Assembly (NCBI RefSeq): GCF_002024505.1
Contig: NZ_CP019402.1
Span: forward strand, 372,001-436,000
DNA from: Plantibacter flavus
GTDB lineage: Bacteria; Actinomycetota; Actinomycetes; Actinomycetales; Microbacteriaceae
Length of the DNA: 64,000 nucleotides
Direction: 5' to 3'
A program made the position numbers and the translations under genes. Within the stretch, counting starts at the first letter, position 1. Every line of letters starts with the position of its first letter. Below are positions 9,829-37,004 of the stretch, piece after piece. Below the pieces are notes generated by a model that made no database searches, was not told the origin of the DNA, and was given only the letters and a program-made list of their open reading frames with translations.

Positions 9829-9900
9829 TGCCTGCGACAGGCTCAGGGACCGCGTCGTTCTGGGGTCACGTCTCCCGGTCACTGAGCCTGTCGAAGTGCC
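9829..9900. repeat. Two REP-like elements downstream of DUF222-HNH copy A
   Basis: Two oppositely oriented copies of the dispersed repeat lie between the convergent lipoprotein and HNH genes: a degenerate one (TGCCTGCGACAGGCTCAGGG, about 9829-9848) and CACTGAGCCTGTCGAAGTG (9880-9898). They pair with copies on the other side of the HNH gene and may also terminate transcription from both sides. Confidence 0.75.
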
Positions 9901-9925
9901 CACGAGAATCCCGTCGTCGGCGGGG

Positions 9926-11197
9926 TCAGAACGGCGCGGGGTCCGGTTCCGTTCGGTGGTGTTTCCCGTCGGGTGTCGTCCAGTCGAGCACACCACCTGG
10001 CCCGTGGTCGAGGTTCCAACCCGGCAGGTGCTTCATCCGGTGATGATGTCGACACAGGCAGGCGAGGTTTCCGACATCCGTTGTGCCGCCGTCTTCCCAC
10101 GCGACGGAGTGATCGAGATCGCAGGCTCTGGCGCGTCTGCCGCAGCCTGGCGCCCGACAGGTGCCGTCCCGGAGGCGGACCGCGCGTTGCAGGTCGGCCG
10201 GAACGCGGTACTGATTCCGCCCTTCCGAGAGGACCGCACCGGTTTCAGGCTGGACGAGGATCCGGGTGAAGCTCGGTGCGTTCACCGCGATGCGTGCGGC
10301 GGTCTCGGGGTCGATTGGCCCGTAGCCGTCCAGGGTTGCCGGGGCGTCCGAGACACCGGCCATGCTGAGCGCCGGGACCGTGATCTGGACGGTGGGGACG
10401 ATGTGCTCCTGCACTTCGATCGGGTGCGGGAGCATCGGGCTCGACATGACATCTTCCGGCGTGACACCGGTGAGGGCGAGCGCCGCGAGTGCGTCCGCTT
10501 GCAGTTGTGCGCAGGTGCGGGTGTCGCCCGCAGCGCGCGAGGCCGCGGCGGCCGCCTCGACGCGCTCGACGATGCCCTGCGCGATCGGCGCCGTGGTGAA
10601 CAGGTGCACCCACGCCATGCCGTCGGCTGCGGGCTCGAACTCAACCCGGCGGTCTGCCTCGGAGCGGACCGCTCGGGCGGTGATGGACTCGGGGTGGAGG
10701 CGCTCGCGCAGGACGCGGGCGCGCCTGCGGAGGTTCGCGTTGGTGGACTCCTCCGCGACTGGCAGGACTTCTGCGAGGAACGCAGCCCGCCCGGCTACCG
10801 GGACGTCACAGAGTTGGTCGATGATCGTCTGCGCGTGCCGCGCCGAGATGCGACCGGTTTCGAGGGATTCGAGGACGGCCGGCGCTTCGTTCACCAGGCG
10901 CTCGGCGTCGTTGATCGCTCGCTGGACGGTCTGCTCGGGCGTGCGCGTCGCCATCGCGAGGGCTGCACACGTGGAGCGGCGCGAGAGCGCCAGGCGCTCG
11001 GCCGGCGGGAACACGGCCGGAACGACCGAGTCGGCGTAGGCGTCCGCGTAGGCCGCTGAGCGGGCGAGGAGGCGGGCCTCTTCAGCGTCCAGGTTGGCGC
11101 GACGCCGCTGGATGTCCGCGTACTGGTCCGAGAACTCCGCGAGCTGCGCGGCGTACTCGTCGCCGGCTCGAACTGCGGAGGCGGTGGTCTCGGTCAT
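9926..11197 (-). CDS. DUF222 / HNH endonuclease, 13E12 repeat family (copy A)
   Basis: 423 aa. Residues 1-320 form the helical DUF222 domain (SRRSTCAALAMATRTPEQTV, LETGRISARHAQTIIDQL). The C-terminus is a zinc-bound HNH nuclease: CRAPGCGRRARACDLDHSVAW, then DVGNLACLCRHHHRMKH. The two Cys pairs should bind zinc and DLDH plus the HHH cluster form the beta-beta-alpha-Me active site. Differs from copy B (35417) at 41 of 423 residues and has the same length. No Shine-Dalgarno; instead a conserved palindrome precedes the ATG. The family corresponds to the REP13E12 repeats of Mycobacterium tuberculosis; its biological role is unresolved. Confidence 0.92.
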   Translation of the reverse strand: MTETTASAVRAGDEYAAQLAEFSDQYADIQRRRANLDAEEARLLARSAAYADAYADSVVPAVFPPAERLALSRRSTCAALAMATRTPEQTVQRAINDAERLVNEAPAVLESLETGRISARHAQTIIDQLCDVPVAGRAAFLAEVLPVAEESTNANLRRRARVLRERLHPESITARAVRSEADRRVEFEPAADGMAWVHLFTTAPIAQGIVERVEAAAAASRAAGDTRTCAQLQADALAALALTGVTPEDVMSSPMLPHPIEVQEHIVPTVQITVPALSMAGVSDAPATLDGYGPIDPETAARIAVNAPSFTRILVQPETGAVLSEGRNQYRVPADLQRAVRLRDGTCRAPGCGRRARACDLDHSVAWEDGGTTDVGNLACLCRHHHRMKHLPGWNLDHGPGGVLDWTTPDGKHHRTEPDPAPF

Positions 11198-11234
11198 GGG
11201 ACAAGTCCAGCATGGACCACTGACATTCCAGATG
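11198..11234 (-). promoter_or_regulatory. Conserved 37-bp leader of DUF222-HNH copy A with small palindrome
   Basis: Directly abutting the ATG, 37 bp match the leader of copy B at 35 positions. Both hold GTCCA-N3-TGGAC (here 11205-11217) and neither has a Shine-Dalgarno. Such strong conservation in a noncoding stretch suggests an operator or a translation-control hairpin that travelled with the gene. Confidence 0.6.
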
Positions 11235-11267
11235 GTGAGCCGTCCCAGTTGTGGAAGTTGCTCGTGG

Positions 11268-11318
11268 GCCCTTCGACAGGCTCAGGGACCGGGGAGGGGA
11301 GTCAGGGACCGGGGGAGG
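11268..11318. repeat. REP-like element and decayed tandem copy upstream of DUF222-HNH copy A
   Basis: CCCTTCGACAGGCTCAGGG at 11270-11288 is followed by ACCGGGGAGG and a partial repeat TCAGGGACCGGGG at 11302-11314 (period 20). In gene orientation the element points the same way as those upstream of copy B. Confidence 0.8.
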
Positions 11319-11326
11319 ACAGACGA

Positions 11327-11356
11327 ACGCCGGTGACCCGAGCGGGTCACCGGCGT
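11327..11356 (-). terminator. Terminator of the csbD-like gene
   Basis: A perfect 14-bp inverted repeat, ACGCCGGTGACCCG / CGGGTCACCGGCGT with AG between the arms, 16 bp beyond the csbD-like stop. Confidence 0.75.
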
Positions 11357-11372
11357 CCGTGTGATCAGGAGG

Positions 11373-11546
11373 TCAGTTCTTGAACGCGTCCTTCACGTTC
11401 TCACCGGCCTGCTTCACGTCGGACTTGGCCTGGTCGGCCTTGCCCTCCGCGATGAGCTTGTCGTTGTCTGTCGCCTTGCCGACGGCCTCTTTGGCCTTGC
11501 CCGCGAGGTCTTCGGCGGCGTTCTTGATCTTGTCTCCTGCGCTCAT
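11373..11546 (-). CDS. CsbD-family stress protein
   Basis: 57 aa: MSAGDKIKNAAEDLAGKAKE, then AVGKATDNDKLIAEGKADQA and finally KSDVKQAGENVKDAFKN. This is a complete, hydrophilic Lys/Ala-rich CsbD protein with the family GKAKEAVGKATDN and AEGKADQAKSDVKQ pattern. GAGGAG precedes the ATG and a strong terminator follows the stop. CsbD proteins accumulate in general stress and stationary phase; molecular role unknown. It stands alone, about 200 bp from the VIT1-type transporter gene; nothing evident lies in 11547-11747. Confidence 0.9.
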   Translation of the reverse strand: MSAGDKIKNAAEDLAGKAKEAVGKATDNDKLIAEGKADQAKSDVKQAGENVKDAFKN

Positions 11547-11747
11547 ATGGTGCTCCTCACATGTTCTTCGGGCTGTCGATCCGCACTGATCGAATCCGAC
11601 AGGGCGACCGGGTGGACGCCCTTCACTTCTACACCCGGGAGCCCCAGGCCCGGGCGGGGCTCCAGCAGACTCCCAGAGAACTCCCCGGACCGCGCTGTGC
11701 CAGCGCGCCCGTCGTCGGATCGTCGTCGACGACCGGGACCCTGGCCA

Positions 11748-12476
11748 TCAGACCACGCCGCTCGTGCCGAGCAGGGTGCCGATCGCGAAGGTGACGGCGA
11801 GGGCGAGCGCTCCACCGACCACGACACGGATGGTCGGGCGGAGCGCGGGGTTGCCGCCGATCCTCGCGCTCGTGAACCCGGTGAGCGCCAGCGCGATGAG
11901 CACGACGATGAAGGTGATCGGGACGCGCACCTCGGGCGGCGGCAGCAGGATCGCGAGCAGGGGGAGCAGTGCCCCGATCGTGAAGGCGAGCGCCGATGCG
12001 CCGGCGGCCGCCCACGGGCTCACGACGGCGTCCTCGGTGATGCCGAGTTCGGCCTCGAGGTGCGCCGTGAGCGGATCGTGTGCGGTCAGCTCCTCGGCGA
12101 CCCGCCTCGCGGTCGTCGGCTGGAGCCCCTTCGCCTCGTAGATCCCGGCGAGTTCCGCGAGCTCGGCCTCGGGGTCGTCGGAGAGCTCCCGCCGCTCCTT
12201 CGCGATGAGGGCGCGCTGACTGTCCCGCTGGCTGCTCACCGACACGTACTCGCCGAGCGCCATGGAGATCGCACCACCGACGAGCCCGGCGACACCCGCG
12301 GCGAGGAGCGGGGTGCTGTCGGTCGTGGCACCGGCGACACCGACGACGAGGGACGCGACGGAGACGATGCCGTCGTTCGCGCCGAGCACACCCGCACGGA
12401 GCCAGTTCAAGCGGCCCGCGAGGTCACCGCGGTGCGGTTCGTCCGGGTGGCCGCCGGTCGGTGGTGAGGAGCTCAT
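11748..12476 (-). CDS. VIT1/CCC1-family iron/manganese transporter
   Basis: 242 aa from the ATG at 12476. The N-terminal cytoplasmic segment leads into LRAGVLGANDGIVSVASLVVGVAGA (about residues 25-50), the family hallmark. Then comes a membrane pair ending GEYVSVSSQRDSQ, an acidic/basic cytoplasmic helix region (ERRELSDDPEAELAEL) that normally binds the metal before transport, and three C-terminal helices. Members move Fe2+ or Mn2+ across membranes, here probably exporting it. The Shine-Dalgarno is weak. Divergent from nhaA across 161 bp. Confidence 0.9.
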   Translation of the reverse strand: MSSSPPTGGHPDEPHRGDLAGRLNWLRAGVLGANDGIVSVASLVVGVAGATTDSTPLLAAGVAGLVGGAISMALGEYVSVSSQRDSQRALIAKERRELSDDPEAELAELAGIYEAKGLQPTTARRVAEELTAHDPLTAHLEAELGITEDAVVSPWAAAGASALAFTIGALLPLLAILLPPPEVRVPITFIVVLIALALTGFTSARIGGNPALRPTIRVVVGGALALAVTFAIGTLLGTSGVV

Positions 12477-12637
12477 GGATGCATCCAAGCACTCCGCGGG
12501 CCGCCCGCGCACGGGTTCCCGCCCGATCGCGTGCCCGGTCGCCTAGACTGGAGGCTGGTGCGCCGGGAAGTCTGGTCGGCGGGCGGTCGATCGGGATCGC
12601 TCTGCTGCTCGACCGAACCCTCCCCCGAAGGATCCGT

Positions 12638-13954
12638 ATGCCCGACGCTCACCGCTCACACGACCTGCCGGCCGACCAGGCCCCGCACTCGATCTGGCGT
12701 GGCATCCACCAGACGCTCCAACAGGACACCGTCGGTGGTGCCCTCCTCGTCGTCGCAACCGCACTCGCGCTCGTGCTCGCCAACACCGGTGCCTCCGACT
12801 TCTACCTGAGCGTCCGCGACTTCACCTTCGGTCCGGAGGCGCTCCATCTGAACCTCTCCATCGGTGCCTGGGCGGCCGACGGGCTCCTCGCGATCTTCTT
12901 CTTCGTCGTCGGCCTGGAACTCAAGGAGGAGTTCGTCGCCGGAAAGCTCCGGAACCCCAAGACCGCGGCGCTCCCCATCGCCGCAGCCGTCGGCGGCGTG
13001 GTCGTGCCCGCCGTCATCTACGTCCTCGTGAACCTGAGCGCTGGGCCCGACGCGCTGCAGGGCTGGGCGATCCCGGCCGCCACGGACATCGCGTTCGCCG
13101 TCGCCGTGATCGCGGTGGTCGGCAAGTTCCTACCGCCGGCACTGCGGACCTTCCTGCTCACGCTCGCCGTGGTGGACGACCTCATCGCCATCAGCATCAT
13201 CGCGATCTTCTACACCGACCACATCGAGTTCCTGCCCCTCGCGATCGCGGCCGTGCCGCTCGCGATCTTCGCCGTGCTCGTCCAGCGCGGCGTCCGGGCC
13301 TGGTGGGTGCTCATCCCGCTCGGTCTGTGCACCTGGGCGCTCATCCACGCCTCCGGTATCCACGCGACCGTCGCCGGCGTGCTGCTCGGCTTCATGGTGC
13401 CCGTCTTCGCGACGAAGCGCGCCCGCGTCCAGGTGGGGACCACCGCCGAGGGGCGCCCGGTCTACGACGGGCTCGCCGCGCACTTCGCCGACCGCTGGAG
13501 TGTCGTGTCCACGGCGGTCGCCGTCCCGATCTTCGCCTTCTTCTCCGCGGGCGTGGTCATCGGCGGGATCTCCGGGCTCGTCGAGTCCTTCCAGGACACC
13601 ATCGCACTCGGGATCATCGCCGGACTCGTCCTCGGCAAGCCGATCGGCATCACGGTGACGACGTTCCTCGTCACGCGCCTGCCCGGGCTCAGGCTCGACC
13701 CCTCGATCCGTTGGGTCGACCTCGTCGGCATGGCGTTCGTCGCGGGCATCGGATTCACGGTGTCGCTGCTCGTCGGTGAACTGTCCTTCGGTGTCGGCAG
13801 CGAGTCCGACGACCACGTCAAGGTCGGTGTGCTCGCCGGCTCGCTCATCGCCGCCGCCATCGGTGCCGCGATCCTCGCCGCCCGCAACCGCGTCTACCGG
13901 CGTGGGGTCACGGCTGGAAGTAGTACGCCGAATGCAGGCGGCAGCCCGGATTGA
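12638..13954 (+). CDS. nhaA: Na+/H+ antiporter NhaA
   Basis: 438 aa; the ATG at 12638 has GAAGGA 6 bases upstream. About 12 membrane helices. The Na+/H+-binding aspartates are in LLTLAVVDDLIAISIIAIFY, and ADGLLAIFFFVVGLELKEEF and PAATDIAFAVAVIAVVGKFLP are family signatures. It exchanges cytoplasmic Na+ for external protons, supporting pH and salt homeostasis. The last 15 codons (GVTAGSSTPNAGGSPD) overlap the convergent CHY zinc-finger gene by 47 bp; this tail is not conserved in NhaA and is probably a by-product of the overlap. Confidence 0.95.
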   Translation: MPDAHRSHDLPADQAPHSIWRGIHQTLQQDTVGGALLVVATALALVLANTGASDFYLSVRDFTFGPEALHLNLSIGAWAADGLLAIFFFVVGLELKEEFVAGKLRNPKTAALPIAAAVGGVVVPAVIYVLVNLSAGPDALQGWAIPAATDIAFAVAVIAVVGKFLPPALRTFLLTLAVVDDLIAISIIAIFYTDHIEFLPLAIAAVPLAIFAVLVQRGVRAWWVLIPLGLCTWALIHASGIHATVAGVLLGFMVPVFATKRARVQVGTTAEGRPVYDGLAAHFADRWSVVSTAVAVPIFAFFSAGVVIGGISGLVESFQDTIALGIIAGLVLGKPIGITVTTFLVTRLPGLRLDPSIRWVDLVGMAFVAGIGFTVSLLVGELSFGVGSESDDHVKVGVLAGSLIAAAIGAAILAARNRVYRRGVTAGSSTPNAGGSPD

Positions 13955-14240
13955 ACCGGGCGCCACAGTTCGGGCAGGCGTCGACTTCCAGGTAGCGCTC
14001 GATCGTCAACTCCGTCGAGCACACGCCGCACAGGATCGCCTCGCGGTCGCGCTGCTCGCGCGGCCACTGCTCGGCCGGGTGGTCGGCGCACTCCGCGTGG
14101 CACAGGTGGCACGGGTAGTACTCGCCGCAGCAGGCGAAGCGGATCGCGATGACGTCGAGCGTGGTCGCGTAGTGGACGCAGCGCGTCTCGTCGTCGACCG
14201 TCTTCCCGAGGACGTGCACGGTGTCGCCGCCGCCGCTCAT
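13908..14240 (-). CDS. CHY zinc-finger protein
   Basis: 110 aa, mostly zinc ligands: CVHY at 21-24, CCGEYYPCHLCHAECADH around 37-54, CGVCSTEL near 71 and CPNCGARFNPGC near 89. This is the arrangement of the stand-alone bacterial CHY zinc finger; the family binds several zinc ions, and function in bacteria is unknown. The ATG overlaps the bioN stop (ATGA at 14240-14237), so it is co-translated as the last gene of the biotin-uptake operon. Whether it has a biotin or zinc role is open. Its 3' end overlaps nhaA by 47 bp on the other strand. Confidence 0.88.
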   Translation of the reverse strand: MSGGGDTVHVLGKTVDDETRCVHYATTLDVIAIRFACCGEYYPCHLCHAECADHPAEQWPREQRDREAILCGVCSTELTIERYLEVDACPNCGARFNPGCRLHSAYYFQP

Positions 14241-14833
14241 CGGACGCCCCGGGCGGTGAGGGCCTCACCGAGTTCGTCGGCGTGCTTCAGCGACACCACG
14301 AGGAACGGCACGACGAAGGTCACCAGGTTCGACCCCGCCCCGCGCGCCCGCTGCGCCTCCCGGACGCTCGTGGCCAGGCGGGCGAGGACCGGCACCGTGT
14401 TGATCGCGACGGCGAGCATCAGGGCGATGCGCGAGGGGTCGACACCGAAGCGACCCAGGGGCTGGAGGACGCGCTCGAAGGCGTCGAGCAGGTCGGCGAC
14501 GCGCGTGCTCAGCACGAGGAGGCCCGCGAGCAGGATGGCGGCGACGATGCGGGACGTGTTCGACACGGCGGACTCGACGTCGAGGAACAGCAGTTGGCCG
14601 GCCACCGTGATCGTGATGATCCAGCGGATGAGCAGGAGCTGCCGTCCGAGCTCGCCGAGGCCGAGACCCGAGACGAGGTAGGCGATGACGGTCACGGTGG
14701 TGGCGATGCCCGCGGTCCACCAGCTCGTCGGTAGGAGCGAGATCGCGAGCACCACGACGAGGATGCCGAGCGCCTTCGGGCCGGCCGGCGCGCGATGGAG
14801 CCAGCCGGAGCCGGGGCGGTAGAGGGTGATCAC
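14237..14833 (-). CDS. bioN: ECF transporter T component BioN
   Basis: 198 aa, a short T component with about five membrane helices. The two coupling-helix motifs that dock the ATPase are present: AQRARGAG around residue 163 and ALTARGVR at the extreme C-terminus. BioN connects BioY, the biotin-binding subunit, to BioM, the ATPase. It starts 5 bp after bioM ends and overlaps the CHY gene start by ATGA. Assignment to biotin rather than another vitamin rests on the linked bioY and BioQ operators. Confidence 0.9.
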   Translation of the reverse strand: MITLYRPGSGWLHRAPAGPKALGILVVVLAISLLPTSWWTAGIATTVTVIAYLVSGLGLGELGRQLLLIRWIITITVAGQLLFLDVESAVSNTSRIVAAILLAGLLVLSTRVADLLDAFERVLQPLGRFGVDPSRIALMLAVAINTVPVLARLATSVREAQRARGAGSNLVTFVVPFLVVSLKHADELGEALTARGVR

Positions 14834-14837
14834 GCCG

Positions 14838-15548
14838 TCACGACCGCAGACTCGCGCGGTAGGCCGCGATCACGTCGTCCGGTGCGCCCTGCGCGACGAC
14901 CCGCCCGCCGTCGAAGAGCAGCGCGGTGTCGCAGCGGGCGGCGAGTTCCAGGTCGTGGGTGACGAGGAGGAGCTGATGGCCCGCCTCGGGACGCAGGAGG
15001 TGGTCGGCGACGGCGGCGCTGTTGCGGGCGTCGAGGTAGGCGGTGGGTTCGTCGGCGATGAGCAGCGCCGGCCGGCGGATCACGGCCCCGCAGAGCGCCA
15101 ACAGCTGCTTCTGGCCACCGGAGAGTTCGTAGGCGGACCGGTCGGCGAGCGCCGTCAGGCCGAACTCGTCGAGCGCATCGGCGACCTGCGTGGCGATGTC
15201 GGCCTTCGACGCCTTCGTGCCGCGGAGGGAGAACGCGACGTCCTCCGCCACCGTCGGCATGACGATCTGCGCGTCCGGGTTGCTGAACACGATGCTGACG
15301 AGTCGTCGAAGGGTCGCCGTGTCCTTCGCGGCGTCGACCCCGTGGACCTGCACGCTGCCGGCGGTCGCGCGGGTCAGGCCGCCGACGAGCCGGGCGAAGG
15401 TGGACTTGCCCGAGCCGTTCGCGCCGATGACCGCGATGCGCGCGTCGTCGAGGTGGAGCGTCACGTCGTCGAGTGCGACGGTGTCGCCGAGACGCGCGGT
15501 GACGCGGTCGAGACGGATGGCGGATGACTGGTCGATGTCCCCGATCAT
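14838..15548 (-). CDS. bioM: ECF transporter ATPase BioM
   Basis: 236 aa; the ATG at 15548 overlaps the thiolase stop as ATGA. ABC ATPase features in order: Walker A GANGSGKST (about residue 42), Q-loop in IVFSNPDAQIVMPT, signature ELSGGQKQLLALC, Walker B ALLIADEPTAYLD, and switch histidine in LLVTHDLELA. One ATPase gene suggests a homodimer, as known for BioMNY systems. It powers biotin uptake with BioN and BioY. Confidence 0.93.
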   Translation of the reverse strand: MIGDIDQSSAIRLDRVTARLGDTVALDDVTLHLDDARIAVIGANGSGKSTFARLVGGLTRATAGSVQVHGVDAAKDTATLRRLVSIVFSNPDAQIVMPTVAEDVAFSLRGTKASKADIATQVADALDEFGLTALADRSAYELSGGQKQLLALCGAVIRRPALLIADEPTAYLDARNSAAVADHLLRPEAGHQLLLVTHDLELAARCDTALLFDGGRVVAQGAPDDVIAAYRASLRS

Positions 15549-16702
15549 CGCACGACCTCGAACACCGCGGCGACGCCGAGACCGCCGCCGACCGACGCTG
15601 CCGCCACCCCGATCGTGCCCGCTGGAGCCCCGCCGCGGACGAGCCGCGAGAACAGGCGGACCACGGCGACCGCACCGCTCGCGCCCCACGGGTGACCGAG
15701 CGCGAGGGCTCCACCGTCGGCGCAGAGTCGCTCATCGTCCTCGGCGACACCGAGCCGGTCGAGCACGGCGAGGGTCTGGGCCGCGAACGCCTCCACGATC
15801 TCGAACGCGGCGACCTGCGCGAGGTCCACGTCGGCCCGTTCGAGGGCGTCGAGGATCGCCGGCGCGGCCCCGATCCCTGGGAGTGCCGGGTCGCAGCCGA
15901 CGACGGCGTGCGCCCGGACGGCGAGACCGGGCGTCGCGCTCCCGTGGGCGGGCCCGCCGGGTCCGCCGGGCACGACGAGCACCGCGGCAGCACCGTCGCT
16001 CACCCGGCAGGTGTTGCCTGCGGTGAGGGAGCCGTCGCTGAAGAGCGGCGTGAACCGGGGGAGGAGCCGCTCGATCCCGCTGCTCGGCGCCTCATCGTGC
16101 TCCGCCGCCCCGACCAGCGGGACGAGCTCGTCCGTGAACCGCCCGGCGGCGACGGCGCTCGCCGCACGGTGCGTGCTGCGCGCCGCGTAGGCGTCCTGGC
16201 GTTCGCGCGAGATCCCGTCGTGCTCCGCGAGATCCTCAGCGGCCCTGGTCATGTCGGGGTCGTGCCAACCCGACGGCGCGAACGGTGCACGCGTGTATGC
16301 GACGCCGTCGACGGAGCGGGTCGGCGCGGTCGACGCGCTCTCGACACCGCCGGCGATCCGAGGCCGACCGTCACCGGCGCTGATCGCCGTGGACGCCTCG
16401 ATGATCGCCGCGAGGCCGCTGCCGCACTGCCGGTCGACGGTGAGCCCTGGCACGGCGAAGCCGAGGCCCGCTCCGAGTGCGGCGACGCGGGCAGGGTTGC
16501 CGCCAGGCCCCATGCAGTTGCCGAGGACGACGTCCGCCACCACCGGCGGCAGACCCAGCATGTGCGTCGCGTCGTCGTGCACGGCCCGGACGGCGGGGAC
16601 CGCCAGCTGCTCGACCGTGAGCGCGGCGAGGGCGCGCCCGCGCGTCGCCATCGGCGTCCGTCGGGCGGCGACGATGCGCGGGAGGGTGTGCGACTCAGTC
16701 AA
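15545..16702 (-). CDS. Thiolase-family acetyl-CoA C-acyltransferase in the biotin-uptake operon
   Basis: 385 aa from a TTG start at 16702, the only start before the conserved PRIVAARRTP; it overlaps the ligase stop by 8 bases. The nucleophilic Cys is in VDRQCGSGLAA and the catalytic His in GGALALGHPWGASGA. Two family positions deviate: the usual NEAFA reads VEAFA, and the second active-site Cys of CxGGG is replaced, reading AAASVGGGLG. Classical thiolases use that Cys as acid/base, so activity may be altered. In Bacillus subtilis a bioY paralogue is likewise linked to an acyl-CoA ligase (YhfT) and thiolase (YhfS), so the association recurs; the reaction in biotin metabolism is unknown. Confidence 0.88.
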   Translation of the reverse strand: MTESHTLPRIVAARRTPMATRGRALAALTVEQLAVPAVRAVHDDATHMLGLPPVVADVVLGNCMGPGGNPARVAALGAGLGFAVPGLTVDRQCGSGLAAIIEASTAISAGDGRPRIAGGVESASTAPTRSVDGVAYTRAPFAPSGWHDPDMTRAAEDLAEHDGISRERQDAYAARSTHRAASAVAAGRFTDELVPLVGAAEHDEAPSSGIERLLPRFTPLFSDGSLTAGNTCRVSDGAAAVLVVPGGPGGPAHGSATPGLAVRAHAVVGCDPALPGIGAAPAILDALERADVDLAQVAAFEIVEAFAAQTLAVLDRLGVAEDDERLCADGGALALGHPWGASGAVAVVRLFSRLVRGGAPAGTIGVAAASVGGGLGVAAVFEVVR

Positions 16703-18454: not shown

Positions 18455-18508
18455 GCTGGGTCCTTCGTCGGGATGGTCGGTTCGCTTTGGGGGCGGATGG
18501 ATCGCACC

Positions 18509-18536
18509 TGAACGGTGTTCACCTGAACAGCGTTCA
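18509..18536. promoter_or_regulatory. Twin BioQ operators, TGAAC-N3-GTTCA
   Basis: Two perfect 13-bp palindromes, TGAACGGTGTTCA (18509-18521) and TGAACAGCGTTCA (18524-18536), 15 bp apart, lie between bioY and the TetR gene. TGAAC-N3-GTTxx is the form known for BioQ in Corynebacterineae. The second copy lies directly before the probable -10 of the regulator gene (TATAGT, 18538-18543), so the site fits both repression of bioY and autoregulation. Confidence 0.85.
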
Positions 18537-18550
18537 CTATAGTGGTGCTC

Positions 18551-19770: not shown

Positions 19771-19784
19771 AGGTCTGCTCGACG

Positions 19785-19806
19785 CCCTTCGACAAGCTCA
19801 GGGACC
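19785..19806. repeat. Solo REP-like element between convergent genes
   Basis: CCCTTCGACAAGCTCAGGG followed by ACC, one base different in the loop from the elements at the HNH genes. It fills the 45-bp gap between the MarR gene and the nuclease gene, a position suited to two-way transcription termination. Confidence 0.75.
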
Positions 19807-19815
19807 GGACCCGCC

Positions 19816-20768: not shown

Positions 20769-20787
20769 AGTTTGATATATTTAACTC

Positions 20788-27742: not shown

Positions 27743-27748
27743 GCGAAC

Positions 27749-28506: not shown

Positions 28507-28513
28507 TCGGAGG

Positions 28514-29956: not shown

Positions 29957-30020
29957 CGCACTTCCTCGTCTGCTGGGCCCGCGAGCCGGACGGCGTCGTG
30001 GACAGGACGACAGTACCGGT

Positions 30021-30698
30021 TCAGTCGTCGGCGCCCGGCCGCAGCAGGCCGCTCTCGTACGCGAGGATGACGAGCTGGGCGCGGTCATGAGCGGCGACCT
30101 TGGTCATGATGCGGTTCACGTGGGTCTTCGAGGTGTGCGGTGAGATGACGAGGTCGTCGGCGATCTGCTGGTTCGACCGTCCGCGGGCCACGAGGAGCAG
30201 CACCTCGAGTTCCCGCTCGGTGAGCAGCGCCAGCTCGGTGGGGACCGCGCGTGGGCTCGTCGGTTCCCCCGCAGCGACGACGTACTTCGTGATGAGACTC
30301 CGGGTCGCCGCGGGGGACAGGAGAGCGTCGCCGGCGTGCACCGCGCGCACGGCGCGGACGATCTCCTCGGGCTCCGAGCCCTTGCCGATGAAGCCGCTCG
30401 CGCCGGCCCGCAGGGTCGCGACGAGGTTCTCGTCCTCCTCGAACGTGGTGAGGATGAGGACCCGCGTGTCCGAGAGGTCGGGGTCGGTGCAGATCGCCGA
30501 GGTCGCGTCGATGCCGTCGAGCACGGGCATGCGGATGTCCATGAGCACGACGTCCGGTCGCATCTCCTGCGCAAGTGACACCGCCTGCGCGCCGTCGACG
30601 GCTTCGCCCACGACCTCGAGGTCGGCCTCGGACGAGAGGATGTCGGCGACGGCCTGACGGATGAGCGACTGGTCGTCGACGACGAGCACGGTGGTCAT
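30021..30698 (-). CDS. NarL/FixJ-family response regulator
   Basis: 225 aa. Receiver domain with VVDDQSL acidic pair and phosphoacceptor Asp in PDVVLMDIRMPVLDG (residue about 54), then Thr in LILTTFEED and Lys in GFIGKGSEP. C-terminal LuxR helix-turn-helix: LTERELEVLLLVARGRSNQQIADDLVIS. Its start overlaps the histidine-kinase stop (ATGA). Probable target: the ABC exporter pair transcribed divergently from the kinase gene. Confidence 0.93.
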   Translation of the reverse strand: MTTVLVVDDQSLIRQAVADILSSEADLEVVGEAVDGAQAVSLAQEMRPDVVLMDIRMPVLDGIDATSAICTDPDLSDTRVLILTTFEEDENLVATLRAGASGFIGKGSEPEEIVRAVRAVHAGDALLSPAATRSLITKYVVAAGEPTSPRAVPTELALLTERELEVLLLVARGRSNQQIADDLVISPHTSKTHVNRIMTKVAAHDRAQLVILAYESGLLRPGADD

Positions 30699-31930
30699 GC
30701 GGGGGACTCCTCGGGGTGCGTCGGGTGCGCGAGAGTCGGCTCGCCGGTCGGGAGGCTCGCGGACAGCCGCCAGCCGCCCGGAGTCGCGCCGACGTCGACG
30801 GACCCGCGGACGGCGGCGACGCGCTCACGGATGCCGAGGAGTCCGTGTCCGGTGGTCGGCGCCGCGTCGGCCTGCTCACGCGGGACCCCGGGTGCCGTCG
30901 GGTTGCTCACGCTGACGACGATCCTCCCGTTCTCGCCCTCCACGAGCACGTGCGCACGACGCTCAGGACCGTGCTTCAGCGCGTTCGTCAGCCCCTCCTG
31001 GATGACGCGGTACGCGACCATGTCCGTGGCGGTCGACAGCTCCAGTGGGTCTGGGTCGATCCGTGTCGTGATGTCGAGACCCGCGGCCGTGAACTCGGCG
31101 ATCAATGCGTCGAGTCGGTCGAGTCCCGGCTGCGGCAGCGTTCCCCGGGAGCCTGCGCCAGCGCCGTCGCTGTCGCTGCGCAGGACCTCGAGCAGATCAC
31201 CGATCTCGCCGAGCACCGTCCGCGACGCCCGGCGGATCGAGACGAGCGCCTCCTTCGCCTTCTCCGGCCGCGTCTCCAGGGAGCTCGACGCCACCCCGGC
31301 GTTCAGGCTGATCACCGAGATCTGGTGGGCGACGGTGTCGTGGAGGTCCCGCGCGATCCGGAGCCGCTCCTCGGTCACCCGACGCCTCGCCTCTGCCTCG
31401 CGGGTCTGTTCGGCCCGCTCCGCGCGTTCGGTGATCGCCAGGATGTACGCGCGGCGGGACCGCGTCCCGTCTCCGGCCGCGGCGGCGAACGCGATCAGCA
31501 CCGCGAACTGCACCGTCCGCGGATCGAAGCTCCCGATCGACGCGAGCAGGCTGAGGAGGGCGACGGCGACCATCGTCGCGACGGCCGTGATGAGGGTCGT
31601 CCGACGCGCAGAGCGAACGGCCACCCCGAACATCGCGATGGCGGCCGCGACCACGACACCGGGAGCGAGGGTCCCCGTGATCGCCGCTGCCCCGTAACAG
31701 GCGACGACGGCCGCGAGCACCGGGATGGGCCAGTGTCGACGGAGCGGGAGCAGGAGCGCGGGCGCGACGACGAGCGCGACGACGAGTGGGCTGCCCGGAC
31801 GGAACTCCGCGTTGGGGAACGGGATGAACGCCGAGGCGATGATGAGGACCGCGGCCACCACATCGCCCACCCACGCCGGAGGTCTCGGATGCGGATCGCG
31901 CACCCGGTGATCCTGCGTCACGGAGGTCAT
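30695..31930 (-). CDS. DesK/NarX-type sensor histidine kinase
   Basis: 411 aa from the ATG at 31930. N-terminal membrane domain with about five helices and no large extracytoplasmic loop, so it probably senses within the membrane. HisKA_3 phosphoacceptor in ERLRIARDLHDTVAHQISVI (His near residue 205). HATPase core: VIQEGLTNALKHGPERR (N box) and GHGLLGIRERVAAVRGSVDV (G box). Co-translated with the response regulator, and divergent from an ABC exporter by 165 bp. Confidence 0.92.
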   Translation of the reverse strand: MTSVTQDHRVRDPHPRPPAWVGDVVAAVLIIASAFIPFPNAEFRPGSPLVVALVVAPALLLPLRRHWPIPVLAAVVACYGAAAITGTLAPGVVVAAAIAMFGVAVRSARRTTLITAVATMVAVALLSLLASIGSFDPRTVQFAVLIAFAAAAGDGTRSRRAYILAITERAERAEQTREAEARRRVTEERLRIARDLHDTVAHQISVISLNAGVASSSLETRPEKAKEALVSIRRASRTVLGEIGDLLEVLRSDSDGAGAGSRGTLPQPGLDRLDALIAEFTAAGLDITTRIDPDPLELSTATDMVAYRVIQEGLTNALKHGPERRAHVLVEGENGRIVVSVSNPTAPGVPREQADAAPTTGHGLLGIRERVAAVRGSVDVGATPGGWRLSASLPTGEPTLAHPTHPEESPA

Positions 31931-31983
31931 GGGCCCAGTCTGCCGGGAACCGGCGTCCGGCGACTCCTCCGCACGTGGCATTC

Positions 31984-32005
31984 CGCGGTACCACGGACGC
32001 GGTAC
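31984..32005. promoter_or_regulatory. Direct repeat upstream of the ABC operon, possible response-regulator site
   Basis: CGCGGTAC occurs at 31984-31991 and 31998-32005, 14 bp apart, each followed by a CACGG-like stretch, about 90 bp before the ABC ATPase start. A NarL-type dimer could use such a repeat; evidence is positional only. Confidence 0.3.
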
Positions 32006-32095
32006 ACGGGTGTCCGCCGGAGGGGGACGCGTCGGACGGGCGTCGCCGCGAGTCTGGACTGGTGCCGGAGTACCGGCCCCAGACGAGGAGACACC

Positions 32096-32803
32096 ATGCA
32101 GAACACCACAGCGCCGCCGATCATCTCGGTCCGGGACGTCCGGCGTTCCTACGGTCGCGGTCAGAACCGGTTCGACGCGCTGAAGGGGGTGAGCTTCGAC
32201 ATCCACGCCGGCGAGAGTGTCGCGATCGTCGGGAAGAGCGGCTCCGGCAAGTCCACGCTCATGCACGTGCTCGCGCTCCTCGACGCACCGAGTTCCGGCA
32301 CCGTCGAGCTCGAAGGGGTCGACACGAGCACCCTCCGCGGTCGCCGCCTCAACACGACCAGGAACAAGACCTTCGGGTTCGTGTTCCAGCAGTTCTTCCT
32401 CACCGCCAATGCGACGGTGCTCGAGAACGTCCTGCTCCCCATGAAGATCGCCGGCGTCCGCCGCCGTGACCGACGTCGCCGGGCGCTCGCCGCACTCGCG
32501 CAGCTCCAGCTCGAGGACAAGGCGCGCAACCGTGCGGTGAACCTCTCGGGCGGGCAGAAGCAGCGGACGGTGATCGCCCGCGCGCTCGTCAACAACCCGC
32601 GGATCATCTTCGCCGACGAGCCGACCGGCAACCTCGACACGGCGACCGGCGCCGTCGTGGAGGACATCCTGTTCTCCCTCAACCGGGAGAGCGGCATCAC
32701 CCTCATCGTCGTCACGCACGACGAGGAGCTGGCGGCACGCTGTGATCGGCGGATCCTCATCCGAGACGGACTGCTCGTCGAGGACGAGGCGGTGGCCGCA
32801 TGA
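32096..32803 (+). CDS. ABC exporter ATPase (MacB/LolD type)
   Basis: 235 aa; GACGAGGAG precedes the ATG. Walker A GKSGSGKST (about 44), Q-loop FVFQQFF, signature NLSGGQKQRTVIARAL, Walker B RIIFADEPTGNLDTATG with the DEPTGNLD typical of the MacB/LolD subfamily, and switch His in VVTHDEELA. Acts with the FtsX-like permease, whose start overlaps its stop (ATGA). These systems export peptides or antibiotics, or act in envelope stress. Probably controlled by the divergent two-component system. Confidence 0.94.
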   Translation: MQNTTAPPIISVRDVRRSYGRGQNRFDALKGVSFDIHAGESVAIVGKSGSGKSTLMHVLALLDAPSSGTVELEGVDTSTLRGRRLNTTRNKTFGFVFQQFFLTANATVLENVLLPMKIAGVRRRDRRRRALAALAQLQLEDKARNRAVNLSGGQKQRTVIARALVNNPRIIFADEPTGNLDTATGAVVEDILFSLNRESGITLIVVTHDEELAARCDRRILIRDGLLVEDEAVAA

Positions 32804-34110
32804 GAACCGTCGACCTCATCGGGACCGCCGTCGCGAACACGTTCCGGTCCAAGACCCGGACCATCCTGACCATCCTGGCGATCTTCGTCGGGGCGTTCAC
32901 CCTCACCCTCACGAACGGGCTCGGCACCGGCATCAACGCCTACATCGACGACACGGTGTCGAGCGTCGGCGCGTCCGACACGATGACCGTCACCAAGACG
33001 TCCGACACCGGCGGCGGGCTGGGTGGGGCCACGAGCGGGCCGAAGGAGTACGATCCGGACGCGGTCGCCTCCACCGGTGCCGGTGCGCCGGGATCGACCG
33101 TCGTCGCCCTCACGCCGACCGATCTCGACGAGCTCGGCGGGATCGACGGCGTCCTGGACGTGCAGGCCGTGAAGTCGATCTCGACCGACTACATCGAGGC
33201 GGGCGGCGGCACGAAGTACGTCGTCGGTGTCGGTGGGCTCATCTCCGGGCAGAGCGTCACACTGCTGGACGGTGCACAGCCCGACGACGACACCGACACG
33301 CTTCAGCTCGTGCTCCCCACCTCCTATGTGGAACCGCTCGGCTTCGGAAGCGACGCCGACGCGGTCGGGCAGACGGTCACGGTCGCCATCACGGATGCGC
33401 AGCGCACGCAGCACACCGTGGACGCGACGGTCGTCGGAGTCGCCGAGGAGAGTCTCACCTCGCCCACGGGCGCCTCGATCGTGCCGAACGCCGCGCTCAC
33501 CGACCTTCTCTACGAGACACAGAACATCGGCGTCCCGTCCGACCAGGTCGAGCGGTACGCGCAGGCGTCCATCCGGTTCAGCGCGGACGCCACCGACGAG
33601 CAGGTCACGGCGTTGAAGGACCGACTCGCCGACGCGGGCTACACCGGCACGACCGTCGCGGACCAGCTCGGCACCATCAAGACGGTGATCGACGGGATCG
33701 TCCTCGTCCTCAACGCCTTCGCGATCATCGCCCTTCTCGCGGCCAGCTTCGGGATCGTGAACACCCTGCTCATGTCCGTGCAGGAGCGCACCCGCGAGAT
33801 CGGGCTGATGAAGGCCATGGGGATGGGCAGCGGGAAGGTCTTCGGGTTGTTCAGCCTCGAGGCGGCGTTCATCGGTTTCCTCGGCAGTGCGATCGGCGTC
33901 GGTATCGCGGTGCTGGCCGGCACCGGCATCAGTGCCGCGCTGTCCGGATCGCTCCTCGCCGACCTGCCGGGCCTCGACCTCATCGCGTTCGACCCGGTGT
34001 CGCTCGGGATCATCGTCCTGGTCGTCATGGTGATCGCGTTCCTCGCCGGGACCCTGCCCGCCGCCCGGGCCGCCAAGGCCGATCCGGTGGAGTCGCTCCG
34101 CTACGAGTGA
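32800..34110 (+). CDS. MacB/FtsX-like ABC permease
   Basis: 436 aa. One N-terminal membrane helix (RTILTILAIFVGAFTLTLTN), a large extracytoplasmic MacB-type periplasmic core domain (residues about 45-290) and three C-terminal helices containing ERTREIGLMKAMGMGSGKVF and LPAARAAKADPVESLRYE, both FtsX/MacB hallmarks. It couples ATP hydrolysis in the partner ATPase to mechanical work on an extracytoplasmic substrate. Strong terminator after the stop. Confidence 0.93.
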   Translation: MRTVDLIGTAVANTFRSKTRTILTILAIFVGAFTLTLTNGLGTGINAYIDDTVSSVGASDTMTVTKTSDTGGGLGGATSGPKEYDPDAVASTGAGAPGSTVVALTPTDLDELGGIDGVLDVQAVKSISTDYIEAGGGTKYVVGVGGLISGQSVTLLDGAQPDDDTDTLQLVLPTSYVEPLGFGSDADAVGQTVTVAITDAQRTQHTVDATVVGVAEESLTSPTGASIVPNAALTDLLYETQNIGVPSDQVERYAQASIRFSADATDEQVTALKDRLADAGYTGTTVADQLGTIKTVIDGIVLVLNAFAIIALLAASFGIVNTLLMSVQERTREIGLMKAMGMGSGKVFGLFSLEAAFIGFLGSAIGVGIAVLAGTGISAALSGSLLADLPGLDLIAFDPVSLGIIVLVVMVIAFLAGTLPAARAAKADPVESLRYE

Positions 34111-34134
34111 GATGCGGCGGAAGGTCCGTGGTGA

Positions 34135-34172
34135 CGGCTGTGGGGCGTGGCGGAAGCGGCGCCCCACAGCCG
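34135..34172 (+). terminator. Terminator after the MacB-like ABC operon
   Basis: Arms CGGCTGTGGGGCG (34135-34147) and CGCCCCACAGCCG (34160-34172) are perfectly complementary around a 12-base loop, 24 bp after the stop. The rest of the 281-bp gap to the next gene shows nothing I can name. Confidence 0.8.
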
Positions 34173-34391
34173 CGCCGGCGCCAGGTTGAGGAGCAGCACC
34201 GGCGCAGACGCTCAGGTCACGTCTGCAGCGTCCACGTTACGACCAGCGACCGCCCTGTCGTCGGAGGTTGAGGCTCGGCGCCTGCTCTCTTACGCTTCGC
34301 GCTGTGGCTGTCCATGCGGGTCGTCGGTTTCATCGCGCTGCTCCCGTCGGTCTCTTCCGGACACTACTCCGGAACCAATATCGTCGACATC

Positions 34392-34988
34392 ATGCGTGTG
34401 TTGCAGCGGGTGGGAGTGCCGCTTCTCGTGTCCGGAACGATCGTGCTCGCGCTGTCGGCGTGCTCTGGTGGGAGTGGGCCCGGTGGTGACTCCGCCGGTG
34501 GTGCATCGCCCGCTGCGACGGTGCCGGCGGAGACGTCGAGCGGGGGCTCGGGAGACGGATCGCCCCTGCAGGTCGACTGCGCGGCGGTGCAGGCGGCCGT
34601 CGCGCCGTACATCGAGGGACTCGTCGCGCGGGAGGACAACGGGGCGGACGAGTACGGGACCCTCTGCGGCTGGGAGGCGCCGGAAGGGACGATCGACGCG
34701 GCGGACATCCGGTCGGTGGAGGTCGTCGTCTCGCCGGAACCGAGTGAGGCGCTGTCGGCCGATGAGCTCGCCGCCGCTGGGCTCACGCCGATCCCGGATA
34801 CGACCATCGAGGCTGCCGGCGGGATCGCGTACAGCGCGACGGTCGAGACCGGAGTCGCCGCGGTGATCGTCACGACGGTGGTGCTGCCGGACGCCGAAGT
34901 GTCCGTCACCGGCGGGCAGTGGGCGGGTCATCCGTCGCTCGACGGGCCTGCCGCGGTCGAGGTCGTGAAGGTGCTCATGGGCCGGTGA
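34392..34988 (+). CDS. Secreted lipoprotein, unknown function
   Basis: 198 aa from the ATG at 34392, chosen because MRVLQRVGVPLLVSGTIVLA with lipobox LSAC is a complete lipoprotein signal; the frame is open further upstream but adds no signal-like sequence. A Gly/Ser/Pro linker (25-55) precedes a compact alpha/beta domain with one Cys pair (VDCAAVQ, TLCGWEAP), reminiscent of DUF3558-type lipoproteins. Weak Shine-Dalgarno. It is followed by the repeat block upstream of the second DUF222-HNH gene. Confidence 0.75.
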   Translation: MRVLQRVGVPLLVSGTIVLALSACSGGSGPGGDSAGGASPAATVPAETSSGGSGDGSPLQVDCAAVQAAVAPYIEGLVAREDNGADEYGTLCGWEAPEGTIDAADIRSVEVVVSPEPSEALSADELAAAGLTPIPDTTIEAAGGIAYSATVETGVAAVIVTTVVLPDAEVSVTGGQWAGHPSLDGPAAVEVVKVLMGR

Positions 34989-35028
34989 GCGGACTGGGAG
35001 CATGTCGCCTTTCGGCACGCTCGGCGAC

Positions 35029-35345
35029 CGAGACCGTTCCCTGAGCACCCCGGTCCGCGAGCAACCCTTCCCCGTTCCCTGAGCAACCCTTCCCCGTTCC
35101 CTGAGCAACCCTTCCCCGTTCCCTGAGCAACCCTTTCCCGGTCCACGAGCGACCCTTCCCCGGTCCCTGAGCTTGTCGAAGGGCGCACGTAGGCACTTCG
35201 ACAAGCTCAGTGACCGGAGGAGGTCCACCCGAATCCCCTCCGCTCCTTGAGCAACCCTTCCCCGGTCCCTGAGCCTGTCGAAGGGCGCACGGAGAACCCG
35301 GCGAATCCGGCATGCCTCTCCCGGTCCCTGAGCCTGTCGAAGGGC
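35029..35345. repeat. REP-like elements and 22-bp tandem array upstream of DUF222-HNH copy B
   Basis: The 428-bp gap 34989-35416 holds no gene. From about 35029 to 35150 a 22-bp unit (CCCTGAGCAACCCTTCCCCG plus two bases) repeats four to five times with mutations. Full REP-like cores follow: CCCTGAGCTTGTCGAAGGG (35165-35183), CACTTCGACAAGCTCAGTG (35194-35212, inverted), CCCTGAGCCTGTCGAAGGG (35267-35285) and the same at 35326-35344. Confidence 0.85.
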
Positions 35346-35379
35346 ACACGAGGAGACTTACACAACCGGCTCGACTCAG

Positions 35380-35416
35380 CATCTGAAATGTCAGTGGTCC
35401 ATGGTGGACTTGTCCC
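35380..35416 (+). promoter_or_regulatory. Conserved 37-bp leader of DUF222-HNH copy B with small palindrome
   Basis: Matches the leader of copy A at 35 of 37 positions and holds GTCCATGGTGGAC (35397-35409), a GTCCA-N3-TGGAC palindrome. No Shine-Dalgarno precedes the ATG. Confidence 0.6.
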
Positions 35417-36688
35417 ATGACCGAGACCACCATCACCGCGATCCGCGCGAGCGACGAATACGCCGCACGCCTCGCGGAGTTCTCGGACCAGTACGCGGAG
35501 ATCCAGCGTCGGCGTGCTGCTCTGGACGCCGAGGAGGCCCGCCTCCTCGCCCGCTCCGCCGCCTACGCGGACGCCTTCGCCGACGCCACGGTCCCGGCGA
35601 TCTTCCCGCCCGCGGAACGCCAGGCGCTCTCGCGCCGCTCGACGTGTGCGGCGCTCGCGATGGCGACGCGGATCCCGGAACGGACGGTTCAGCGTGCGAC
35701 CAACGATGCCGAACTGCTCGTGAACGAAGCGCCGGCTGTGCTCGAGTCCCTCGAAGCCGGTCGTATCTCGGCGCGGCACGCGCAGACGATCGTCGATCAA
35801 CTCAGTGACGTCCCGACCGCAGGGCGGACGGTGTTCCTCGCTGAGGTGCTGCCGGTTGCGGAGGAGTCGACCAACGCGTACCTCCGGAAGCGCGCCCAAG
35901 TCCTGCGCGAGCGCCTCCACCCGGAATCGATCACCGCACGCGCAACCCGTTCCGAGGCTGACCGTCGCATCGAGTTCGAACCCGCCGCCGACGGCATGGC
36001 CTGGGTGCACCTGTTCACCACCGCGCCGATCGCGCAAGGCATCATCGAGCGGGTCGAGACGGCAGCGGCGGAATCGCGCAAGGCCGGCGACACCCGCACC
36101 TGCGGACAGCTGCAGGCGGACGCGCTCGCGGCGCTTGCGCTCACCGGTGTCACGCCGGACGACGTGATGTCGAGCCCGGTGCTCCCGCACCCGATCGAGG
36201 TGCAGGAGCACATCGAGCCGACCGTGCAGATCACGGTCCCGGCGCTCACGATGGCCGGCGTCTCCGATGCACCCGGCATGCTCGATGGGTACGGCCCCAT
36301 CGACCCTGAGACCGCAGCACGTATCGCCGTGAACGCACCGAGCTTCACTCGGATCCTGGTCCAGCCCGAGACCGGCGCGGTCCTTTCCGTCGGCCGGAAT
36401 CAGTACCGCGTTCCGGCCGACCTCCAACGCGCTGTACGCCTGCGGGACGGCACCTGTCGGGCACCCGGTTGCGGCAGACGGGCCCGGGCTTGCGACCTCG
36501 ATCATTCGGCCGCGTGGGAGGACGGCGGCACGACGGATGTCGGGAACCTCGCCTGTCTCTGTCGACATCACCATCGGATGAAGCACCTTCCGGGATGGAA
36601 TCTCGACCATGGTCCCGGTGGGGTGCTCGAGTGGACGACACCCGACGGGAAGCATCACCGGACCGAACCGGACCCCGCCCCGTTCTGA
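35417..36688 (+). CDS. DUF222 / HNH endonuclease, 13E12 repeat family (copy B)
   Basis: 423 aa, the same length as copy A and 382 of 423 residues identical; the differences concentrate in the DUF222 half while the HNH end is almost unchanged. HNH region: CRAPGCGRRARACDLDHSAAW, DVGNLACLCRHHHRMKH. Both copies are intact with full nuclease motifs, arguing against simple decay. Opposite strand from copy A, about 25 kb apart, and flanked on both sides by the same repeats plus 22-bp tandem arrays. Function unresolved for the family. Confidence 0.92.
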   Translation: MTETTITAIRASDEYAARLAEFSDQYAEIQRRRAALDAEEARLLARSAAYADAFADATVPAIFPPAERQALSRRSTCAALAMATRIPERTVQRATNDAELLVNEAPAVLESLEAGRISARHAQTIVDQLSDVPTAGRTVFLAEVLPVAEESTNAYLRKRAQVLRERLHPESITARATRSEADRRIEFEPAADGMAWVHLFTTAPIAQGIIERVETAAAESRKAGDTRTCGQLQADALAALALTGVTPDDVMSSPVLPHPIEVQEHIEPTVQITVPALTMAGVSDAPGMLDGYGPIDPETAARIAVNAPSFTRILVQPETGAVLSVGRNQYRVPADLQRAVRLRDGTCRAPGCGRRARACDLDHSAAWEDGGTTDVGNLACLCRHHHRMKHLPGWNLDHGPGGVLEWTTPDGKHHRTEPDPAPF

Positions 36689-36700
36689 CCCGTTTTCGGT

Positions 36701-36922
36701 CCCTGAGCCTGTCGAAGGGTTCTTCGTGGGCACTTCGACAGGCTCAGTGACCGGGAGAGGTCCGCCCGGAGTGGTGAGGCATGCTCGTGGGCACTTCGAC
36801 AGGCTCAGTGACCGGGGAGAACAGGCTCAGTGACCGGGGAGGACGCGCTCAGTGACCGGGGAGGACGCGCTCAGTGACCGGGAGAGGTGCGCCCGGATGG
36901 ACCCGGTCCCTGAGCCTGTCGA
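36701..36922. repeat. REP-like elements and 22-bp tandem array downstream of DUF222-HNH copy B
   Basis: CCCTGAGCCTGTCGAAGGG at 36701-36719, inverted CACTTCGACAGGCTCAGTG at 36731-36749 and 36792-36810, then four 22-bp units built on GCTCAGTGACCGGGGAG (36800-36887), and a final CCCTGAGCCTGTCGAAGGG at 36908-36926. The 316-bp gap 36689-37004 contains nothing else. Confidence 0.85.
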
Positions 36923-37004
36923 AGGGCAGTCGGGTTGCACACGCTCCGTGGACGGGGAGCCGCTTCCGGGACCACCTCCGCACCCCGCCGGGTAGGCTCC
37001 AAAG

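Follow-up and report, generated by a model that had tools for sequence, protein, structure and literature searches.

Inverted palindromic repeats bracket DUF222-HNH nuclease genes in Plantibacter, and their frequent shared presence or absence hints at a possible mobile unit that lacks any known transposase

Two described systems are close to the locus analyzed here. Most repetitive extragenic palindromes (REPs) reportedly stand downstream of a coding region, and GTAG repeats or long inverted repeats are described as flanking the genes of REP-associated tyrosine transposases (RAYTs) (PMC3733652). Heterotypic REP dimers are known, reportedly without an obvious explanation, and for the CGTC repeats the question of what moves REPs without RAYTs is stated in print; the word Actinobacteria has no occurrence in the main text of that source (PMC3733652). 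The second system is REP13E12 (13E12), the name of the Mycobacterium tuberculosis members of the DUF222-HNH gene family. It is grouped with HNH endonuclease/DUF222 among repetitive elements in the DIVE paper (PMC10589994), its loci are reported as a gene-conversion hotspot with 87 events, although reportedly without a defined function (PMC13061034), and phiRv1 lies within a REP13E12 sequence (PMC9317374). Here we analyze a stretch of 64,000 nucleotides from Plantibacter flavus (NZ_CP019402.1, positions 372,001 to 436,000; “the window”), which carries two DUF222-HNH genes, each bracketed by inverted palindromic repeats with the core TTCGACARGCTCAG. In the open-licence literature, titles and abstract openings on DUF222 or 13E12 held no tie of DUF222-HNH to palindromic REPs, and neither the literal core sequence, a Plantibacter repeat with HNH, nor REP/RAYT in Actinobacteria was found.

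A first-pass annotation, made from the letters of the window alone, had described two intact, roughly 90% identical 423-aa proteins on opposite strands, assigned them to the DUF222-HNH family, and placed repeats on both sides of each gene. All of this holds. The two open reading frames (ORFs; copy 1 on the minus strand, copy 2 on the plus strand) share 90.5% protein and 84.8% DNA identity, and both match Pfam families PF02720 (DUF222; E=2.8e-23 for copy 1, 1.3e-23 for copy 2) and PF01844 (HNH; E=1.7e-05 and 8.4e-05) above the curated cut-offs, in the DUF222-then-HNH order of a REP13E12-type protein. The HNH region reads DLDHS..N..CRHHH in both copies. Twelve repeat matches with at most three mismatches are present in the window, against a mean of 0.05 in shuffles. 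They fall into five sites (9830-9898, 11269, 19785, 35165-35344, and 36701-36926), and the match positions bear out that all except 19785 bracket the two genes, as first described. Searches of the bracketed ORFs found only DUF222 and HNH in Pfam and nothing in NCBIfam or PADLOC, and a known transposase was not among the matches.

The gene–repeat pattern is stronger genome-wide than inside the window. The genome that holds the window (G000; a single contig of 4.21 Mb) contains 12 near-full DUF222-HNH copies, whose proteins are 87–93% identical to that of copy 1, what is left of another copy (site s2137), two diverged relatives in pieces (58–75%), and four distant relatives (29–33% in the HNH part), for a total of 19 loci. 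The exact core occurs 232 times (119 forward, 113 reverse; 0 for the reversed control), a count from which decayed arms are missed. High copy number and inverted pairs, the marks of a short extragenic repeat of the REP or bacterial interspersed mosaic element (BIME) type, are both found for these cores. Fifty-five of the 232 lie inside or within 300 bp of the 19 loci, whose borders are partly estimated and which make up 0.86% of the genome, where 2.0 would be expected by length. At least one exact core accompanies 15 of the 19 loci; L160, L165, L168, and L049 have none, and L160 shows near matches to the core at both ends. With a generous per-locus chance of 0.106 and cores taken as independent points, the binomial bound on the probability of 15 or more such loci is 5.7e-12. 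Clustering of the repeats at DUF222-HNH genes, which the first-pass annotation had put forward for checking, is thus strong.

The two sides of a gene carry different arms. The earlier proposal of a single repeat type on both sides stands as to the bracketing, but the repeats before and after the gene belong to two different types with compensated stems. A unit runs from an L arm (GGTCCCTGAGCYTGTCGAAGGGC) through a variable stretch, a conserved leader, and the ORF to an inverse R arm (GCACTTCGACARGCTCAGTGACC). Among the 12 near-full copies of this genome, an exact core lies 88–89 nt before the ATG in nine (the L arm) and an exact inverse core 32–48 nt after the stop, also in nine (the R arm). 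Some copies have an extra L arm directly after the stop, ahead of the R arm; additional L arms upstream and R arms downstream come in units of ~60 bp, and arm numbers at one and the same site differ between species. Across seven Plantibacter genomes, 52 of 67 nearest upstream arms are L-type, and on the downstream side the first inverse arm belongs to the R type in 56 of 68 cases. Adjacent arms in the same direction are mostly homotypic (74/81 and 72/83); convergent arms (76/101, mostly with 10–29 nt between cores) and divergent arms (80/92) are mostly heterotypic. At the third stem pair, 615 distinct Plantibacter cores hold C-G in 336 and A-T in 230, with 92% paired as compared to 48% for shuffled partners, a contrast that is not a probability because many cores share descent. 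The same position is C-G or G-C in genera g22 (20 cores) and g71 (37 cores).

L-R pairs are predicted to fold strongly (−50.6 kcal/mol and, for the pair after the copy 2 stop as RNA, −43.4 kcal/mol), with the third pair as a mismatch in the L-R fold. The arms also form terminal inverted repeats, a feature of insertion sequences: positions 9874-9906 and 11261-11293 around copy 1 are complementary at 94% over 33 nt, and inverted repeats between 250-bp flanks exceeded the control in 6/6 Plantibacter copies tested (p <= 0.03). The same bracketed layout is seen at two diverged paralogues in this genome. As to the unpaired GTAG or CGTC tag at one stem end that defines the tagged REP superfamilies, CGTAG stands between the arms in some gene-free spacers and is absent from others. 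At one diverged DUF222-HNH locus (L051, 4012804-4016166) the open frame with the HNH part begins far behind the leader motif; judged from its reading frame this gene looks broken, yet repeats bracket it in the usual polarity.

Occupancy of the sites was compared among seven genomes of the genus, five in clade A (G000, G001, G002, G003, and G006; flanks 94–96% identical) and two in clade B (G004 and G005; 93%). The clades are 86–87% identical to each other, and genomes within one clade are not independent. Each genome has 8–15 DUF222-HNH matches at E <= 1e-100, some of them pieces of one copy. When 82 loci were grouped by both flanks, three sites were occupied in all seven genomes and others in two to six, and nine loci were single; contig ends inside copies hide some sites in G002 and G003. 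The copy 2 site (s407) is occupied in 7/7 genomes. The copy 1 site (s382) holds a full copy in four, a remnant in G002 (repeats plus 196 nt of the gene), and no copy in clade B, where 22 nt stand in place of the repeats and gene of clade A. The G002 allele (L263) also has a run of ~30 C beside its repeat array, either real or an assembly fault.

Three further sites are empty in clade B. Gene and repeat are both absent there at s2850, a site cut off by a contig border in G003. Neither clade-B genome has gene or repeat at s1384, where G001 and G002 carry repeat arrays without a gene. At s1808 the gene is found in G000 and G006, arrays in G002 and G003, traces in G001, and no repeat in G004 or G005; the G005 allele (L205) was covered as far as an insert of other DNA that looks like an insertion sequence. 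Taken together, all eight clade-B alleles at these four sites lack the gene and have no core with two or fewer mismatches over 800–1900 bases each, the closest being one core with three mismatches in G005 at s1808. In clade A, 7/7 gene-less alleles examined keep repeats or traces, with 1–9 cores (by mismatch only for G001 at s1808); s504 and s297 in G001, s871 in G002, G003, and G006, s2368 in G003, and s3504 in G002 stand outside this set. Loss of the gene leaves repeats behind. Site s2186x, which has one repeat and no gene in G000 and the gene in relatives of both clades, is most simply explained as such a loss. The joint absence of gene and repeats at the clean sites favors arrival as a unit. 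Empty sites in relatives therefore exist and occupancy varies between species; an even spread of repeats and a lack of presence variation between strains, which the first-pass annotation had named as telling against its idea, were neither of them found.

The copies themselves exchange sequence. In a tree of 65 copies those from the same site are mostly ungrouped, with 46 changes of site label (minimum 15, shuffled mean 50.7), and as few changes arose in 6/200 shuffles; a little site signal remains. The nearest relative of 62 copies was at another site of the same genome for 35 (8.8 expected), at the same site of another genome for 12 (4.0 expected), and elsewhere for 15. Identical runs of at least 150 nt were shared by 12 pairs, as compared to 0 in 20 column shuffles: 9/264 pairs within a genome at different sites, 3/119 at the same site of two genomes, and 0/1508 of the others. 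The runs form tracts of 151–350 nt inside the gene, and the pattern as a whole is one of gene conversion between copies. Within clade A, same-site copies are 84.1% identical (61 pairs) and different-site copies 83.9% within and 83.3% between genomes; the per-site flank mean of 86.6% includes stretches with repeat arrays. Recent whole-gene spread was considered as the main cause of copy similarity and rejected, given that same-site and different-site identities are about equal although the flanks of the species agree at 94–96%, and that the runs are only partial tracts. The suggestion that spread had made the copies alike therefore gives way to gene conversion as the source of most of the similarity. 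Several DUF222-HNH copies and gene conversion among them are likewise described for REP13E12 in M. tuberculosis. The median dN/dS is 0.096 (60 random pairs from 45 intact copies), indicating purifying selection and a protein that is kept working.

We surveyed 199 genomes of the family Microbacteriaceae. The core is present in 68, many with only 1–3 copies; genera g1, g22, g34, g38, g71, and g77 each include one or more genomes with counts from the tens to the hundreds. DUF222 was found in 123, with copy numbers that are lower bounds. The sample comprised 40 DUF222 genes of core-bearing genera and another 20 of genomes poor in the core, all taken from the high-scoring matches listed and hence a non-random set. 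A repeat lies within 300 bp of 10/10 genes in G138 and G190 and 6/7 in G027, at protein identities of 44–48% (8 compared) and 28–39%, respectively. In these three genomes the nearest upstream arm points inward in 13/13 genes that have one and the first downstream arm in 11/14; in four G027 genes the upstream arm lies 135–137 nt before the ATG (starts set by the leader). The 250-bp flank test detected inverted repeats at 7/8 genes of G138/G190, 0/7 of G027, where several starts were set too far upstream, and 0/2 of G076 (empirical p < 0.05). The similar layout at 28–48% protein identity argues for a working gene–repeat link. In these genera the repeats are bound to the gene by where they lie, how they point, which arm type they have, and their presence together with it.

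The direct observations are the anatomy and its enrichment, the differences from species to species, the absence of gene and repeats together at clean sites, the repeats retained by gene-less alleles, and gene conversion. The reading that we favor, though tentatively and at somewhat under even chances, is that a REP-bracketed nuclease gene disperses as one unit and decays to bare repeats. The genome holds a family of ~1.5-kb chromosomal units, each made of L arm(s), leader, DUF222-HNH gene, and inverse R arm(s), and gene and repeats would reach a new intergenic site together. The putative HNH nuclease would nick or cut at REP palindromes, its own or those of a resident pair, and host recombination repair would then insert a copy of the unit. 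Conversion between copies would stem either from this cutting or from ordinary homology, and solitary REP pairs would in part be relics of lost units. Joint spread of nuclease and repeats had already been proposed in the first-pass annotation. Enrichment, variable occupancy, and empty sites support that proposal; the nuclease as the agent and validity across the family are not borne out.

Several observations weigh against dispersal as one unit. Most cores of this genome (177/232) lie away from any DUF222-HNH gene. The solitary repeat at 19785 retains an exact core in G000, G004, G005, and G006, is decayed or lost in G001, G002, and G003, and adjoins a gene in no genome, which shows that a REP can occur independently of the unit. 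Neither a target-site duplication nor an exact junction could be established, the s382 alleles being too diverged at their junctions, and without a polarizing outgroup the clean sites could also reflect joint loss of unit and repeats in clade B. Single arms folded alone are weak (−4.5 and −4.7 kcal/mol) and adopt structures other than the proposed stem. Beyond Plantibacter, G027 does not clearly follow the rule of L and R types, and few sampled genes lie at a repeat in genera g38 (G172 and G043, 0/9), g77 (0/5), and g34 (1/7, of which one lacks a clear ORF and has no core in its stretch) or in G076 (0/2). Flanking inverted repeats were found at 1/36 genes tested outside the repeat-bracketed Plantibacter copies, g22, and g71 (empirical p < 0.05) and, with 0/7 in g22 itself, were rejected as a family trait. 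Lastly, core-like matches to a 33-base query, at weak E-values, occur in 48 of 72,556 plasmid records, among them Sphingobium, Sinorhizobium, Sphingomonas, Nitratireductor, and others, with two records from Microbacterium and some with several places. The alphaproteobacterial matches are either a cross-phylum repeat family or chance REP likeness. For the family at large the earlier proposal is not supported, with 1/21 sampled genes at a repeat in g38, g77, and g34 and 0/20 in core-poor genomes; Plantibacter and some members of two further genera show a strong gene–repeat bond, and three other genera show almost none.

Because of the plasmid matches and the three core-bearing genera with almost no bond, a serious rival is that REPs and DUF222-HNH genes spread separately and merely share tolerant intergenic space, with the nuclease unrelated to the REPs. 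We regard this as less probable than dispersal as one unit, though well worth keeping. The REPs would stem from an unknown or past enzyme, and REP-REP and copy-copy recombination would give rise to gene loss, array growth, and conversion. The many repeats that lie away from genes fit this account, as does s2186x in G000, where the gene is absent and the one REP left is what direct-repeat recombination would leave. Separate spread does not, however, predict inward polarity and near-constant gene spacing in diverged lineages and three genera, nor the clean absence of both gene and repeat at the clade-B sites.

The comparison with RAYT systems bears on what might move these repeats. Like REP/BIME elements and their RAYTs (TnpA-REP), the Plantibacter loci show high-copy short palindromic cores, inverted heterotypic pairs, and tandem arrays. 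Unlike those systems, the bracketed gene is DUF222-HNH, and Y1_Tnp (PF01797) was not found in the core-bearing genomes searched. Among the 199 family genomes it was found only in G017, which has no core; no match was found in G000, G003, G005, or G006 (G001, G002, and G004 were outside the searched set), by a search that was positive in 5/14 control genomes. The link of REPs to a Y1 (HuH) transposase that marks RAYT systems is thus missing in the genomes searched. The analogy drawn in the first-pass annotation is sound as to form, with inverted heterotypic REP pairs around a nuclease gene and no Y1 found, and does not extend to the nuclease as mover of the repeats. Plantibacter arm lengths also differ from those described for the CGTC repeats (stem 8–9 bp, loop 4–5; PMC3733652).

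A bolder version, which we consider doubtful, has DUF222-HNH replace the RAYT in some Microbacteriaceae, recognizing REP arms by their dyad and copying both units and bare pairs. Recognition through the arm dyad, if true, would lead to compensated L and R stems, and DUF222-HNH would then be what moves those REPs for which there is no Y1 transposase. The tie of gene to repeats in a genus that is not known as a pathogen, together with the sites, empty alleles, and arm types given here, opens both the mover question raised for REPs without RAYTs and the missing function of the REP13E12 loci to direct biochemical test.

Other classes offer partial parallels. As with free-standing HNH homing endonucleases, the HNH gene could sit inside its own target, and spread by recombination repair is conceivable; in contrast to that class, no intron or intein was seen at the Plantibacter genes, which occupy many chromosomal sites. 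A homing account, in which REP arrays predate the gene, an empty array is cut by the nuclease at its inner L-R pair, and recombination repair copies the gene in with REP sequence on both sides as homology, strikes us as rather improbable. It would explain why the gene sits where L arms switch to R and why convergent pairs are mostly heterotypic, and it fits s1808, where relatives grade from no repeat through traces to arrays and the G000 and G006 copies come from different parts of the gene tree. Set against it, all five clade-A genomes at s382 have the gene or its remnant beside the repeats, with no REP-only precursor; the identical runs are tracts inside the gene and not whole-gene arrivals; and no copying event young enough to fix junctions was found. 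Miniature inverted-repeat transposable elements (MITEs) and other non-autonomous systems resemble the gene-free L-R pairs, which share the arms of gene-bearing units, and the sites that hold internally deleted genes between arms; in contrast to them, no target-site duplication was found at the Plantibacter loci, and no known transposase either. That the REP pairs are regulatory parts kept with the gene for its control, a terminator hairpin after the stop and an upstream insulator, agrees with the strong fold after copy 2 and the reported downstream preference of REPs (PMC3733652) but is very improbable, since it leaves unexplained the arrays on both sides, array lengths that vary between species at one site, gene-free pairs elsewhere, and the many family genes without pairs.

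Table 1 Coordinates of the DUF222-HNH genes and associated repeats in the window
Feature	Position	Strand	Remark
Outer degenerate repeat beyond copy 1	9830..9848	+	2 mismatches
Downstream R-type arm (CACT/AGTG stem) of copy 1	9874..9906	-	core 9882-9895
DUF222-HNH gene copy 1	9926..11197	-	423 aa, site s382
Leader of copy 1, with TGTCAGTGG motif	11198..11237	-	
Upstream L-type arm (CCCT/AGGG stem) of copy 1	11263..11293	-	core 11272-11285
Solitary repeat, no adjoining DUF222-HNH gene	19785..19803	+	
22-bp tandem array of partial REP sequence beside copy 2	35048..35157	+	
BIME-like pair without a gene, L arm and R arm 8 nt apart	35153..35223	+	predicted hairpin
Second upstream L-type arm of copy 2	35261..35291	+	
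Nearest upstream L-type arm of copy 2	35320..35352	+	
Leader of copy 2	35377..35416	+	
DUF222-HNH gene copy 2	35417..36688	+	423 aa, site s407
L-R pair directly after copy 2 stop codon	36697..36758	+	cores 36703-36716, 36734-36747
Second downstream R-type arm of copy 2	36784..36816	+	
Terminal outer arm beyond copy 2	36902..36927	+	

The 37 bases before the ATG, described earlier as a shared leader, are indeed common to copies 1 and 2, with differences at two positions, but they are not special to the repeat-linked unit. In one sample of 20 DUF222 genes from several genera, the GTCRGTGG motif starts 27 nt before the ATG in 16, and only 3 of the same 20 genes lie at a repeat; the motif is also found at DUF222-HNH genes of genera without this repeat. 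With the motif this widespread at genes mostly away from the repeat, the leader was rejected as part of the REP unit. The motif may serve a large part of the family as promoter or operator.

An origin of the gene from a phage or plasmid was likewise rejected, as the three plasmid and five phage records matched are all below 60% identity and the phage ones are partial. A short-period array similar to the 22-bp array beside copy 2 follows the solitary repeat in G005 (L286). Another palindrome, the GC-rich GGGCAAGCGCGRAGCGCGCGGCAG, occurs in both orientations at DUF222 genes of genus g12, mostly just downstream (L240-L243, L256). With up to three mismatches this palindrome is found 15 times in G017, three times each in G159 and G098, and 0 times in the genome holding the window. 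The G017 matches fall at 11 places (nine with at most one mismatch), at least seven of which, by eye, adjoin a DUF222 match among those listed.

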